Source of the DNA: a virus
Reading direction: 5' to 3' (one strand)
Virus record (IMG/VR): IMGVR_UViG_3300034418_003744
Span: 1 to 21,291 of that record
Length of the DNA stretch: 21,291 nt
A program made the translations under genes and the position numbers. The notes below the pieces were generated by a model. The model was not told the DNA's origin, did no database searches, and was given only the letters and a program-made list of their open reading frames with translations. This document shows positions 2,862-11,454 of this stretch, in pieces (position 1 is the stretch's first letter; the number at the start of each line of letters is the position of its first letter).

Positions 2862-4009
2862 AGTTTGAATACTGTTCCCGTGAAGTCCACGCCCTTCTCT
2901 AGCGTGAAAGTCGCTAAGCCTGGAACTGAGTCCTCGCCTGTTACCTTCTTCCACCATCCTGAGCCGTTGTCCATAGTTGGAGCCATAACTAGAAAGCGTG
3001 AAGTGCCTCGCGGTGTCGATCCCATCTCAGTCACTCTAAGGTGATGCCAGTGGCCGTGCACGAGCACCGAAGCGTCAGCGACTGGCTGGCGGCCGAATGC
3101 CTGCCCTCGCCACCAAGTAGCCATGTTGTCTGGTCTACGTGCCTGATGCCCGTGCACTACGCCGAGGATGTGGAAGCCATCGTCGAATACGTCAATAGCT
3201 AGGGACTCATCGTGAGTCTGCGGTTCGAGGAATCGAATGTTTAGTTCTTTTTCCTTCGCGAGCCGAGCGAGTTGTCGCCCTATGAACACGCCCCAGTCGT
3301 CGGTGGCCTTGCCGATCACCTGTTTTCCAATACGGAACTGGCAGTGATTGGAACCGACGGATGCGTAGGTTATTTGTGGGACGTGCTCATAGAGCAAGCT
3401 TAGGGTTTGCCAAGCGAACGTAGTTGCTAAATCAACCTGCTCCATAAGGCTTAGGTCGTTCGTTGCGAGTTGCTGTAAGTCGGCAGCGTTGTAGAAGGAC
3501 TCAATCGTGTCTCCGAGGTCGGCAAAGATTATCTGCTCGGGTCGCTCACGCTTTACCATCTCAATCAAGCGAGACTGCATTAGTGCCACGCGCTCGATCA
3601 AGCTTTGCGAGTTGCCTCTGTAATCAACCTTGCCTACTTGTAGGTCTGACCATAAGACAACTAGGGCCTTTTCCTGAGTGCTTCTGACCTTTGGAGCCTT
3701 GACCTTTTTCTTAGCTTCCGCAAGTAGTAGCGGGAGGTCGATGCCGGCAGTCTTGCGCCTAAACGTGAACCGGTACGACGTTAGCCACTCTCCGCCTTCA
3801 CGCTGTTGCCAACGTGAGGTTCTCACCGGAGGGATGATGTCGATTTCCTCGGGATTGAGTCCAGCGTCGATTAGGAACTCGTCGAAGTTCTGAGGCTCAG
3901 TTTCGTAGCCCGGCGTTGTCGCCGTGCCTTCCGTGCCATCAAACTCGACTCCAGGTCGGAAGTTTGCCGGTGCGGTTACTTTTGGTGCGGGCTTTAGGTT
4001 CTCTAGCAT
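2858..4009 (-). CDS. Metallophosphoesterase-like protein (calcineurin fold)
   Basis: 383 aa. From about residue 115 the protein shows the calcineurin-like metal-binding series: SDLQVG (121-126), DLGD (164-167), SNHC (220-223), HGH (286-288) and HGHWHH (318-323). Two residues differ from the textbook pattern: the first motif is D-x-Q rather than D-x-H, and the NHD triad reads NHC. Metal binding is likely, but substrate and activity are uncertain. The first 110 residues are a proline-rich leader plus a basic, aromatic segment (SRWQQREGG to FTFRRK) that could bind DNA. In actinophages similar proteins follow a small HTH protein, as here (4020-4241), and lie near terminase or packaging genes. No strong ribosome binding site is seen at the ATG; its stop overlaps the methyltransferase start. 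Confidence 0.75.
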   Translation of the reverse strand: MLENLKPAPKVTAPANFRPGVEFDGTEGTATTPGYETEPQNFDEFLIDAGLNPEEIDIIPPVRTSRWQQREGGEWLTSYRFTFRRKTAGIDLPLLLAEAKKKVKAPKVRSTQEKALVVLWSDLQVGKVDYRGNSQSLIERVALMQSRLIEMVKRERPEQIIFADLGDTIESFYNAADLQQLATNDLSLMEQVDLATTFAWQTLSLLYEHVPQITYASVGSNHCQFRIGKQVIGKATDDWGVFIGRQLARLAKEKELNIRFLEPQTHDESLAIDVFDDGFHILGVVHGHQARRPDNMATWWRGQAFGRQPVADASVLVHGHWHHLRVTEMGSTPRGTSRFLVMAPTMDNGSGWWKKVTGEDSVPGLATFTLEKGVDFTGTVFKL

Positions 4010-7074: not shown

Positions 7075-7470
7075 TTACATTTCGGCTATTTTGATGTCTG
7101 CGCCCTGAAAGTCGGTTGCGTAGACCTTTGTTGCCCTTAGCTCGATCACCTGAGAGTCGTCTCCCCAAACCATTCCTGATTGCCCAATCCCGTCGAGTGC
7201 TCCGCGAGCCAGCTTGTCGATGTCCGGTGGGACGATAGGAAGTGCTCTGTCTTTTTCCTTCACCGTCTTTGGTCTAGGTAGGTAGAACACTATGTCTACC
7301 CTGATCGGGCCGAGCATTAGCTTGTGTTCCTCAGTGACTTGAGCCAGGCACTCGTCTGCAATTGCTTTGCGCCAGACCTTGAGCGCGTTACCTGCGGCCT
7401 CGACTACTCGACCGTTATAGACACGCTTAGAGCCTTGCGGTTTAGGTAGTCCTTCAATCCTCAGTTGCAC
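7075..7470 (-). CDS. rusA: RusA-type Holliday junction resolvase
   Basis: 131 aa, the usual length for RusA. The N-terminal strand GLPKPQGSKRVY resembles the family start. The acidic catalytic block is visible: PPDIDKLARGALDGI (D83, D85, D93), then GMVWGDDSQV (D104, D105), matching the Mg-binding aspartates that cut four-way junctions. It works as a dimer on phage recombination or replication intermediates and would clear branched DNA before packaging. It follows SSB and the recombination genes in the same transcription direction. The start GTG at 7470 lies 16 bases inside the upstream membrane protein gene, and its ribosome binding site (GGAA) is weak. Confidence 0.9.
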   Translation of the reverse strand: MQLRIEGLPKPQGSKRVYNGRVVEAAGNALKVWRKAIADECLAQVTEEHKLMLGPIRVDIVFYLPRPKTVKEKDRALPIVPPDIDKLARGALDGIGQSGMVWGDDSQVIELRATKVYATDFQGADIKIAEM

Positions 7471-7621: not shown

Positions 7622-7883
7622 CTGCTTCCTTGACCGTGACGTTGTTGAAGTGCATTGCTGCGTTCTGTCTCGGCTGGTTGTCTTTGCCGGTGTAGGACTC
7701 AAGCCTGACTGAGACATCGCCCGTGACCTCGACCTCCGAGCCAATAGTCGGGCGTGCATCCGTCCAGACCGTGACGTAGTTCTTTCGATCTTCACCGTCG
7801 AACCCCTTTAGTGTTTCGATTAGCTTGAAGCCGTGACCTTCGATGTGCCAGGCAACCTCGCCGCTTACTTTTCCTTTAGCCAT
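7608..7883 (-). CDS. ssb: SSB-like single-stranded DNA-binding protein
   Basis: 91 aa, shorter than cellular SSB. Alternating beta-strand pattern (VSGEVAWHIEGHGFKLIETL, KNYVTVWTD, GSEVEVTGDVSVRLESY) fits an OB-fold. The C-terminus (KEADAPF) resembles the acidic D-x-P-F tip by which SSB proteins recruit partner enzymes. It would coat ssDNA during phage replication and recombination. It lies between the replication initiator region and RusA, and a strong ACGGAGGAAT ribosome binding site precedes the ATG. Family assignment rests on pattern and context rather than on a long conserved motif. Confidence 0.65.
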   Translation of the reverse strand: MAKGKVSGEVAWHIEGHGFKLIETLKGFDGEDRKNYVTVWTDARPTIGSEVEVTGDVSVRLESYTGKDNQPRQNAAMHFNNVTVKEADAPF

Positions 7884-8002
7884 TATTCCTCCGTAGGTTT
7901 TTCTTTTACTTTACTTTGAGGCTCCGACAATGTGCGAACCATTGACGCAATCACGATTCCCGCAAGACCGGATGCCAGGTAGAACTTCGTCTCCGTCCTC
8001 AT
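7883..8002 (-). CDS. Possible nested small membrane protein (alternative frame)
   Basis: An open frame that overlaps the end of the HNH-like gene in another frame and ends in TAATG on the ssb start. From the ATG at 8002 it encodes 39 aa with a hydrophobic span (FYLASGLAGIVIASMV) and a charged tail; another ATG at 8038 would give 51 aa. The frame stays open back to 8170, where an ATGA overlap occurs. No convincing ribosome binding site was found, so this may be coincidence. Confidence 0.25.
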   Translation of the reverse strand: MRTETKFYLASGLAGIVIASMVRTLSEPQSKVKEKPTEE

Positions 8003-8165
8003 CGACTGGCGTAACCAAGTCCTCAGCGAATCCGCCATGCCAGGGTAAGCAGTCTCCGATTTTCTGTTGCTTGCGTGCTCGGCAGCCGAAGCAGGTGTCG
8101 TTGCTTTTGCGTGTCGAATTGACCTCAAAGACAATGCCGCACCTAACGCATACCTGTTCCGCCAC
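7911..8165 (-). CDS. Zinc-binding HNH-like protein
   Basis: 84 aa. It has an N-terminal zinc ribbon (CVRCG, later CFGC) and a second half with CLPWHGGF followed by CGNRDCVNGSHI. That last element, a Cys-x-N-x-x-C-V-N-x-x-H-I core, resembles the C-terminal part of small HNH nucleases of actinophages. The usual central histidine pair is not obvious, so nuclease activity is doubtful and a structural or DNA-binding role is possible. The GTG at 8165 lies one base after the replication gene stop. Another frame over the same DNA also stays open, but the cysteine spacing makes this one the real gene. Confidence 0.65.
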   Translation of the reverse strand: MAEQVCVRCGIVFEVNSTRKSNDTCFGCRARKQQKIGDCLPWHGGFAEDLVTPVDEDGDEVLPGIRSCGNRDCVNGSHIVGASK

Positions 8166-8166
8166 G

Positions 8167-8895
8167 TCATAAGCCTAGCCTTTTTCGAATGTCCGCGGGA
8201 GGTGGAGCGGAGTTCTTTTCTAGTTCCTTCATCTGATTGAGGTATTCATTTGATGCCTTGAGTTCTTTTTCCCTTCGGGCCTCGATCCCTGCACGAGCTT
8301 CTGGAGTCGTTGCAGCGTTCTCCCATGCGTCGTTGTTTAGCCAGGTCGCTGGATACTTCGTGAAGTCTGGATCGCGCTTAGGGTCGTTGCGATACACAAT
8401 CACACCGGCAAGGATGTCCTCAAACTTTGCTCGCTTTAGTGCCGATCGAAACGCTCTGAAGGCTTTGGCCTTGTCTAGCTTGCGAGGGTAGCTTGTCCAA
8501 AATTCATCGAACATTTTTTCTGTCTGCGCTTTAGATGGTTCTGTAATGGTTCTATTAAGGTTTTGTACGACAACAGTGTCACCCCTGACGGCCGAATCTG
8601 TCACCCCTGATTGCGATTCTGTCACCCCTGGCAACGTCACCCAATAAAGGTTTGACTTGTATTGCGTCTTGGTTGGAGCGTTCTGCACCTCGACTCGTAA
8701 CTCACCAATTGCCTGTAAGTGTTGGATGTCACGCTGCACGCTTCGCTCGGATGAATTGACCATCTTCGCAAGGGTCGAAATTGATGGCCAAGCACCTATC
8801 TCGCCTTGATGATCGGCGATTGCTAATAGAACTAATCTTGCCCTGCCGTCGGCTTTGGAGTTTTTCCAGACGGCATTCATGATCTCGATGCTCAC
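8167..8895 (-). CDS. Replication initiator, winged-helix N-terminus (lambda O-like layout)
   Basis: 242 aa. Residues about 5-70 form a helix-turn-helix of the type used by phage replication proteins (ARLVLLAIADHQ, then SISTLAKMVNSSERSVQRDIQHL). A flexible linker follows (about 85-115). The C-terminal domain (118-192: FDEFWTSYPRKLDKAKAF, FTKYPATWLNNDAW) is typical of phage replication initiators or helicase-loader proteins; a charged tail completes it. The linker DNA carries an iteron array (8577-8642), so the gene probably encodes the protein that binds its own coding sequence as the origin, as in phage lambda O. The GTG start at 8895 overlaps the upstream stop. No helicase or polymerase gene is in view, so host enzymes are likely recruited. 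Confidence 0.75.
   Translation of the reverse strand: MSIEIMNAVWKNSKADGRARLVLLAIADHQGEIGAWPSISTLAKMVNSSERSVQRDIQHLQAIGELRVEVQNAPTKTQYKSNLYWVTLPGVTESQSGVTDSAVRGDTVVVQNLNRTITEPSKAQTEKMFDEFWTSYPRKLDKAKAFRAFRSALKRAKFEDILAGVIVYRNDPKRDPDFTKYPATWLNNDAWENAATTPEARAGIEARREKELKASNEYLNQMKELEKNSAPPPADIRKRLGL
8577..8642 (-). repeat. Iteron array inside the replication gene; candidate origin
   Basis: The 10-mer GTCACCCCTG (plus strand) occurs at 8578-8587, 8600-8609 and 8621-8630, plus a 7-base partial copy GTCACCC at 8636-8642. Start-to-start spacings are 22, 21 and 15 bases, so the three full copies sit about two helical turns apart. Because of the 22-base step, one copy lies in a different reading frame (protein shows G-D-T instead of G-V-T), yet its bases are unchanged: selection acts on DNA. 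A more A+T-rich stretch, 8500-8576, follows on the downstream side. This is the layout of the lambda origin within gene O. Confidence 0.7.
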
Positions 8896-10368: not shown

Positions 10369-10573
10369 CGTCCTCATCCCCTTCGTAATCCTCCACGAAC
10401 TTCCAGCCTTCGCTCATCCAAATTGGTTGCTCGATTCCCTTGATCGTGAGGTATTTGATTGAACCAGTCTCATCGTGTGTGACTAGACCGGTGACCTTGC
10501 CCGTGACAAACGTCTCGTCGTCTCCGATGCTGCGCATTAGTGTCACGGTATCGTGCAGAAAAATTGAGTTCAC
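10361..10573 (-). CDS. Hypothetical protein, 70 aa
   Basis: Beta-rich small protein (MNSIFLHDTVTLMRSIGDD, FVTGKVTGLVTHD, YLTIKGIEQPIWM) with an acidic end (VEDYEGDEDDA). The alternating strands suggest a small barrel such as an SH3-like fold, but no family was recognised. GTG start overlaps the stop of the exonuclease gene (GTGA), and its end overlaps the annealing gene, so it is expressed between the two and could be a partner in recombination. This is inference from position. Confidence 0.55.
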   Translation of the reverse strand: MNSIFLHDTVTLMRSIGDDETFVTGKVTGLVTHDETGSIKYLTIKGIEQPIWMSEGWKFVEDYEGDEDDA

Positions 10574-11454
10574 TTTGTCCTCTTGATTACTAGGTACGGT
10601 GCTCCGCCTCCGCGTGCTTGACGCTGGGCAAACTTGTAGCGCTTGCCTTCGTGCTCCATGTAGGCAGACTTAGCGTTTCCCATTTGAGCTAGCACCTCTG
10701 ACTTGGCTTTATTGAGTTCGTCTTTTGCTCGATCGTATTCGTCTTGAGCTAAGACTAGGTAATGCCCGCCCTCAATCTCAACTTCCTCGTCGGTGATTTC
10801 CAAGTTCTCCTGGCGCACGGCGTTGTAGGTCGAGTCGGAACCATCCCAAGCCGGACGCTCGCCGGACTGAAGGCTGTCCCAAAAGTCTTGCGCTGCTTGA
10901 CGCTGCTGCCTTATCTGAAAGTCGTCGCGGTCGATGTCTGCCTCTACCCAGTCCATCCCGACTAGGCCGATTATCTTTCCCTTTCGCAAGTCCATCACGT
11001 CCAGGTAGTGCTGCACCTGAGCTTCGTATTGCGGTGGCAATTCGTCCCAGTAGTTGCGTGAGGTCTTGACCTCTAGGATTATCCACTCGCCAGTCTCGAC
11101 ATTGCGAGCCAGCGCGTCTGGGTTTGCGTGTAGGTGTTTGACCTTCGGATGCTGATACGTGCCGGTTGTAAAGACTTCGTAGTCTGGGTTCTGTTCCTGC
11201 CAGATACTTAGGATTGGTTCTTCGAGGACTTGCCCTAGACGCATGGCGAAGTTGGATGTCGCTAGGGATTCGATTAGTCCTGATCGCTTTGCCCATAGTG
11301 CGTAAGCAGACTCCCAAGGATTGAGTCCGAGGATAGTTCCTATCTCCGAGCCTCCAATGCCTTCCTGACGGGCGTGATGCCACTCTGGAGACCCGTTTAC
11401 GAACACGCCTAGTAGTTTTGCCTTATTGAACTCTTGCGGAGCGTGTAGCTTCAT
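10570..11454 (-). CDS. YqaJ-type viral exonuclease
   Basis: 294 aa. The PD-(D/E)xK nuclease motifs are in order: GGSE (34-37), a G-x-x-x-E turn (74-78), NPDALA (111-116) and LEVKTS (127-132) with the catalytic E and K, followed by YEAQVQHYLDVM (143-154) as the conserved helix. The C-terminal 70 residues are a charged helical extension (AQDEYDRAKDELNKAK). YqaJ proteins resect dsDNA ends to give 3-prime overhangs for an annealing protein; the annealer candidate at 9823-10368 is the likely partner. It is the first gene of the early minus-strand operon. ATG at 11454 with a clean AGAGG ribosome binding site and only 29 bases before the divergent whiB. Confidence 0.9.
   Translation of the reverse strand: MKLHAPQEFNKAKLLGVFVNGSPEWHHARQEGIGGSEIGTILGLNPWESAYALWAKRSGLIESLATSNFAMRLGQVLEEPILSIWQEQNPDYEVFTTGTYQHPKVKHLHANPDALARNVETGEWIILEVKTSRNYWDELPPQYEAQVQHYLDVMDLRKGKIIGLVGMDWVEADIDRDDFQIRQQRQAAQDFWDSLQSGERPAWDGSDSTYNAVRQENLEITDEEVEIEGGHYLVLAQDEYDRAKDELNKAKSEVLAQMGNAKSAYMEHEGKRYKFAQRQARGGGAPYLVIKRTK

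Follow-up and report, generated by a model that had tools for sequence, protein, structure and literature searches.

A putative phage replication origin within an initiator gene, with direct iterons followed by a tandem 11-mer array

Organization of the initiator locus

The window, which is the whole stretch of 21,291 nucleotides that was analysed, harbors a replication initiator gene on its minus strand. The gene and its two structured domains are positioned as follows.

8167..8895, minus strand: replication initiator gene (242 aa, GTG start), encoding a winged-helix N-terminus, a disordered linker and a helical C-terminus.
8626..8895, minus strand: winged-helix DNA-binding domain, codons 1-90, the presumed iteron reader (HTH_36 match, AlphaFold2 model, domain swap in relatives L008 and L010).
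8311..8532, minus strand: helical C-terminal domain, codons 122-195, with a presumed function as helicase-loader contact (AlphaFold2 model, comparison with relative L009).

The initiator matches phrog_270, annotated "replication initiation protein", with an E-value of 2.8e-36 over residues 1-211, and this profile match spans both the DNA-binding and the C-terminal regions. It also matches HTH_36 (PF13730, E 2.1e-8) and O-like PHROGs. The Phage_rep_O profile (PF04492) does not match it at E<=0.1, whereas lambda O scores 5.7e-36 with the same profile. The initiator had been called unrelated-looking in a preliminary description of this DNA, which holds with respect to PF04492 but not with respect to phrog_270, HTH_36 and the O-like PHROG matches. 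In the AlphaFold2 model (mean pLDDT 87), the winged-helix domain comprises residues 1-90 and the helical C-terminus runs from residue 122 on; pLDDT drops below 50 solely around residues 97-116, the predicted disordered linker. A sequence search against solved structures gave no significant match, and a PDB fold search with the model returned none at E<=0.001, its weak matches including DnaD-like and other winged-helix proteins.

The nearest named phages by protein infect Arthrobacter, at about 35% identity, and a nucleotide search for related named phages found none. As these phages are the sole pointer to an actinobacterial host, the earlier label "actinophage" is not retained. The initiator region is flanked by a RecE/YqaJ-type exonuclease (window 10570-11454) and a RusA-like resolvase (7075-7470); Arthrobacter phage Galaxy also has this replication and recombination cluster. 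Directly after the initiator gene, two minus-strand ORFs of 95 and 84 residues (7883-8170 and 7911-8165) overlap in different frames. The 84-residue ORF is the likelier gene of the two, because its Cys-rich protein resembles the product encoded after the initiator in L008.

Direct repeats in the linker

The 10-mer GTCACCCCTG occurs on the plus strand at 8578, 8600 and 8621, in steps of 22 and 21 bp, with no further exact copy in the 21,291 bases. The match extends to TGTCACCCCTG at 8577, 8599 and 8620, on a single strand, and the coding (minus) strand form of this iteron is CAGGGGTGACA.

8620..8630, minus strand: iteron 1, CAGGGGTGACA, encoding (P)GVT (sequence).
8599..8609, minus strand: iteron 2, CAGGGGTGACA, encoding (S)GVT, 21 bp from iteron 1 (sequence).
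8577..8587, minus strand: iteron 3, CAGGGGTGACA, shifted in frame and encoding RGDT, 22 bp from iteron 2 (sequence and shuffles).
8569..8580, no strand assigned: short dyad GACAacagTGTC, formed by iteron 3 and a 4-bp inverted partner (sequence).
8636..8642, minus strand: 7-base partial copy GGGTGAC, not conserved and not counted as a site (comparison with relatives).

The iterons are thus direct 11-mers, and an inverted partner (4 bp) is found at the last one only. Of 5,000 shuffles that kept both protein and codon usage, 0.02% contained a three-fold 10-mer and 0.7% an out-of-frame repeat of at least 11 bp, the observed one being 12 bp long. The preliminary description had placed three copies at these steps in the linker, one of them out of frame with unchanged bases, and the exact positions, the GVT, GVT, RGDT readings of one DNA word and the low pLDDT around residues 97-116 all agree with it. 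The partial copy that it also listed does exist, but as a fourth iteron it was rejected: none of four relatives keeps it at that place. Since it is absent there and falls in predicted β-strand codons (residues 82-86), it is probably due to chance.

Close relatives and domain exchange

Relatives were identified by protein similarity. Four complete ones share the N-terminal domain of the window initiator (L005, L006, L007 and L009); L004 is a fragment with an identical initiator protein and adds nothing to the comparison. All four carry CAGGGGTGACA three to four times, at 47-71% protein identity and in steps of 21, 22 or 33 bp, and the words between the copies vary. In L007 and L009, as in the window, a 22-bp step puts the last iteron in another frame. 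Across the five genes, 14 of 14 GVT copies are written GGG GTG ACA, with mixed codons elsewhere in these genes.

The iterons follow one part of the protein. L008 and L010 have a C-terminus in common with the window initiator but a different N-terminal domain, and lack iterons, which supports the repeats being binding sites of the window-type domain. In L009 the C-terminal part is replaced by a DnaT domain, and the iterons, together with the 11-mers that follow them (see below), are kept. The iterons thus travel with the DNA-binding domain, as they are lost with the N-terminal swap and retained with the C-terminal one.

In place of iterons, L008 (2668-3444) and L010 (linker near 2985-3090) share the linker stretch GGAATCATTCCACTACGGAACAG, which in L008 takes the palindromic form GTGGAATCATTCCAC. 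This stretch possibly represents a second type of origin and a module that can be exchanged.

Motif-blind survey of initiators

Initiators were gathered by protein only, without the use of any motif. The 88-residue N-terminal domain was searched against species genomes, which gave 32 loci; phrog_270 was searched in 397 genomes of the phylum of Streptosporangiales locus L340 and in 399 of the phylum of Paracoccus locus L357; and named phages were taken in as well. An initiator was present in 127 of the 147 loci, and 90 were usable and non-redundant.

Exact out-of-frame repeats of at least 8 bp occur 289 times in the linkers of these 90 initiators, against 22.3 expected from protein-preserving codon shuffles. 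Individually, 56 of the 90 genes reach p<=0.01, the lowest value that 100 shuffles can give, and 34 lie above it. Repeat spacing peaks at 22 bp (51 cases) and 23 bp (54), followed by 17, 11 and 44 bp. Linkers contain 16.9 out-of-frame repeats per kb, compared with 1.3 for the remainder of the gene and 1.0 for 354 neighbouring ORFs. Iteron sequences vary by lineage and change fast, so that overall their similarity correlates only weakly with N-terminal identity (rho 0.115, permutation p 0.009): iterons are shared by 31% of pairs at 60-80% N-terminal identity, against 1-4% of pairs at lower identity. The last iteron has an inverted arm of at least 6 bp in 32% of cases, compared with 3% in shuffles.

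These data bear on whether the repeats are a protein feature, that is, whether a GVT/RGDT linker is selected as protein and the DNA identity merely follows from its codons. Two of the three window copies are in frame and encode GVT, GVT-rich linkers are found in many relatives, and six matches of the iteron scan described below, among the matches listed, are codon-periodic RGDCSGL-type repeat proteins outside initiators. However, the third copy is out of frame, the linker is predicted to be disordered, a single codon is used for each of G, V and T in 14 of 14 copies, and the 289 out-of-frame repeats face 22 in shuffles that preserve the protein. We discarded a protein repeat on the strength of the codon-preserving shuffles and the frame analysis, and regard it as highly improbable. 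The repeats are rather kept as DNA, as proposed in the preliminary description: out-of-frame repeats exceed those of codon shuffles, and relatives keep the copies in varied linkers. The comparison it had suggested, of 10-mer and spacing against a changing linker protein, came out in favor of persistence both in the close relatives and in the 90 motif-blind initiators.

A tandem 11-mer array follows the iterons

A second element, missed by the preliminary description, lies after the last iteron. It consists of tandem 11-mers of the type AGAACC[AG]TC, which are read in all three frames.

8556..8564, minus strand: first 11-mer unit, degenerate, AAAACCTTA, in register with the next unit at a distance of 11 bp (sequence).
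8545..8553, minus strand: 11-mer unit AGAACCATT (sequence, 7-mer enrichment consensus).
8534..8542, minus strand: 11-mer unit AGAACCATC (sequence, 7-mer enrichment consensus).
8530..8579, no strand assigned: A+T-rich 50 bp with the 11-mer array, a candidate opening site (66% A+T, top 0.8% of the window).

The consensus was obtained from a motif-blind enrichment of 7-mers in linkers against the same codon-shuffle null, in which the top-ranked 7-mers are pieces of AGAACC[AG]TC in all three frames. In the window, at least two AGAACC[AG]T[CT] units stand at 11-bp steps after the last iteron (8545-8553 and 8534-8542). The protein words NRTITEPS of the window and RTVLEPSLNRPVEPS of the Arthrobacter phages are one DNA word in different frames. 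Such 11-mers occur in phages and prophages of Actinomycetota and Proteobacteria.

Sites of this type lie at a distance of 11 bp in 22 cases, where 1.9 would be expected, and distances of 22-23 and 32-35 bp are also in excess. An out-of-frame GAACC tandem at 10-11 bp is found in 28 of the 90 genes (3.4 expected), and a GAACC tandem at 10-12 bp in only 39 of the 90 motif-blind initiators (9.0 expected); GAACC occurs twice at 10-11 bp in 22 initiators and in none of the 354 neighbouring ORFs used as controls. The order of the two elements is fixed, as is their register: 101 sites lie after the last iteron and 13 before it, and the first 11-mer usually starts 22-24 bp from the start of that iteron. 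With no motif used, the slot after the last iteron has an autocorrelation peak at lag 11 (z 3.7), and 16 genes have a CACCC-[AG]AACC junction (2.7 expected). L007 has intact iterons but a degenerate array.

The array coincides with a compositional feature. Positions 8530-8579 are the most A+T-rich 50 bp within 8400-8700, in line with the more A+T-rich stretch described earlier downstream of the repeats in the sense of transcription. The A+T content of the 11-mers themselves is only modestly raised, and the selection of AACC sites accounts for some of the A+T excess seen in the survey. GC skew was uninformative as an origin marker: in the window its cumulative curve reaches a minimum at 16.6 kb with no switch at the linker, and in phage Galaxy it rises throughout.

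GAACC[AG]TC is replaced in L363, a Streptomyces sp. Z26 prophage, by a GAACGCAGT-type repeat at steps of about 9-11 bp, located about 10-60 bp after the last iteron; some lineages may thus have their own 11-mer word.

Scans of viral contigs

We scanned 2.9 million viral contigs at the DNA level. Three copies of GGGGTGAC at 20-24 bp steps were found in at least 119 stretches, and AGAACCRTYNNAGAACCRTY in 89, the latter set being complete. Among the matches listed, 97 of 119 iteron stretches lie in ORFs with an initiator profile (44 of 60 after removal of near-duplicates). The corresponding figures for the 11-mer scan are 70 of 89 and 43 of 57, and the matches inside initiator ORFs are spread over all three frames (43, 21 and 6). 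Among the ORFs without this profile match, at least one (L142, phrog_19658) encodes an initiator that belongs to a different family.

Packaging signals can sit inside phage genes, and the repeats might accordingly be a pac or recombination site that chances to fall in this one. We give this almost no credence, as the repeats track the DNA-binding domain of the initiator itself and blind searches find them in initiators, not in terminase genes.

Long RGDCSGL-type protein repeats are present in L026, L052, L077, L082, L088 and L127, and their 21-bp codon period mimics iterons, which calls for caution in iteron scans. A scan with AGAACCRTYN{0,30}AGAACCRTY was rejected: among the matches listed, a small part of the collection, in-frame protein repeats dominate, and it was therefore not used for spacing.

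Comparison with known origins

The layout is that of lambda O and its ori, as the preliminary description had proposed, with repeats within the initiator gene between the DNA-binding and C-terminal domains and an A+T tract downstream. The lambda ori in gene O and the Stx-phage ori likewise place iterons between these two parts, followed by an A+T-rich tract that opens (PMC7466680, PMC5043065). They differ in detail. Lambda O belongs to Phage_rep_O (PF04492) and the window initiator to HTH_36/phrog_270; lambda iterons are inverted repeats of 18-19 bp bound by dimers, whereas those of the window are direct 11-mers at 21-22 bp; and the lambda slot holds ACAAAAGA twice, 15 bp apart, instead of GAACC 11-mers.

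Staphylococcus phage 80alpha gp20 and Lactococcus phage TP901-1 Rep have an HTH_36-like N-terminus and repeats in the initiator linker, and in 80alpha a putative origin is annotated at these repeats. Unlike the window initiator, they end in Phg_2220_C and DnaB_2 domains, and their repeats run at 15- and 30-bp steps, in frame. Linker repeats are thus found in all three of lambda O, TP901-1 Rep and 80alpha gp20 and the GAACC array in none; in lambda and 80alpha other repeats occupy its place. In 80alpha gp20 (L476:4440-5210), the 30-bp repeats are followed, in the 11-mer slot, by several copies of TACTAATAAT at 15-bp steps, which resemble a DnaA-trio type sequence.

Arthrobacter phages Galaxy and Basilisk carry the same gene family at 35-36% protein identity. 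Their iterons, GGGGTGAAC or GGGGTGNC at 22-bp steps, differ from that of the window by one or two bases, and three GAACCGTCC units at 11-bp steps start 22 bp after the last iteron. Both initiators are annotated only as replication initiation or HTH protein, and neither phage has an annotated origin.

Iteron plasmids (P1, F, RK2, pSC101) also have direct repeats in helical phase beside an A+T-rich region (PMC5043065), whereas the array described here is inside coding sequence. In Pfam, the window initiator matched none of the iteron-plasmid initiator families. The basal unwinding system of bacterial oriC combines a double-strand anchor, the DnaA box, with a short one-strand tandem motif, the DnaA-trios, where opening starts (PMC10721633). 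The resemblance is one of analogy only, between DnaA with 3-bp trios and a winged-helix phage protein with an 11-bp repeat.

An origin inside an initiator gene is already known, and a study of mycobacteriophages named it as one possibility for RepA (PMC7157519). As the GAACC array is absent from lambda, TP901-1 and 80alpha and the window initiator does not match Phage_rep_O, the window origin would be a known layout with new features. Our literature search retrieved lambda-type intragenic origins and no report of the 11-mer; subscription papers were outside its scope, so that absence is not proven.

Proposed origin and mechanism

The repeats are conserved as DNA independently of reading frame, and the iterons are linked to the N-terminal domain. 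We therefore consider it probable that the linker region of the initiator gene is a phage replication origin of the lambda kind, in which the winged helix would bind the iterons and the 11-mer array would be the site of opening or helicase loading. Several observations weigh against it: 34 of the 90 genes stay above p 0.01 for iterons, the GAACC tandem is limited to 39 of 90 initiators, the array of L007 is degenerate, and GC skew does not switch at the linker.

A different role for the same sites would be that of operators, by which the initiator represses or gauges its own synthesis while the origin lies elsewhere. Binding within the gene could block transcription, and some plasmid initiators repress their own genes too. 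The site is mid-gene, however, rather than at a promoter. A second phased repeat often comes after the iterons, in this case within an A+T-rich patch, and an operator has no need of it. Lambda, Stx phages and putatively 80alpha, moreover, have their origin at this same place. An operator is thus an improbable reading of the locus.

For a lambda-like origin, the following sequence of events can be proposed. The winged-helix N-terminal domain would bind the CAGGGGTGACA iterons, three direct repeats that are spaced by about two helical turns and thus face the same side of the DNA. From there the complex would extend onto the adjacent tandem 11-mers AAAACCTTA, AGAACCATT and AGAACCATC, in the same helical register and in the most A+T-rich patch. 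This patch would then open, and the exposed strand may be held by the initiator or used to load the host helicase, which the C-terminal domain would bring. We infer iteron binding, strand opening and helicase loading from the arrangement of the locus. The protein linker is predicted to be disordered, and its codons would thus be free to carry DNA signals. In lambda, the iterons bound by O lie within the O gene, and O opens the A+T tract next to them (PMC5043065, PMC7466680). Single strands rich in A/T are bound by O proteins as well (PMC7466680), and DnaA, which anchors on double-stranded DNA, captures a motif repeated along one of the strands (PMC10721633); by analogy with both, a single-strand role of the 11-mers is plausible.

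The iterons might also mark the origin without the 11-mers being the opened strand; the 11-mers would then be a further class of initiator sites on double-stranded DNA, or the site of a host factor. A step of 11 bp is one helical turn, which suits double-stranded DNA, the units are not strongly A+T-rich, and the 11-mer is common across phyla while iterons vary by lineage, as might be expected of a site for a common host factor. On the other hand, the 11-mers occupy the slot of the opened A+T tract of lambda, their strand orientation is fixed and the array coincides with the A+T peak of the window. We hold double-strand or host-factor sites to be a serious possibility, if a somewhat unlikely one.

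With the 11-mers taken instead as the site of opening, their occurrence across host phyla and initiator modules, with iterons turning over, raises a broader proposal. Tailed phages and prophages may generally use the array to open their origins, as a phage equivalent of the DnaA-trios; its reader would be either a shared part of the initiator or a replication factor universal among hosts. We advance this tentatively, at a little below even confidence.

To our knowledge, the origins of most tailed phages are unmapped, and the locus provides a concrete, testable candidate for a large phage family in this situation. It suggests a rule for placing origins from sequence alone, namely an HTH_36 initiator linker with iterons at 22/23 bp and then GAACC 11-mers. 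Words that recur in phage replication proteins, GVT/RGDT and RTI-EPS/NHQ, could be explained as footprints of DNA signals and not as protein motifs. Iteron-initiator specificity and origin opening become directly testable in laboratory phages, for example those of Arthrobacter.

Outside initiator linkers, tandems of AGAACC 11-mers were also observed near the start of ORFs for DnaB-like helicases or Holliday-junction resolvases (L149:475-2157, L166:2-1837 and L194:5495-6628). Such tandems may be due to chance or may mark an origin immediately ahead of the gene.
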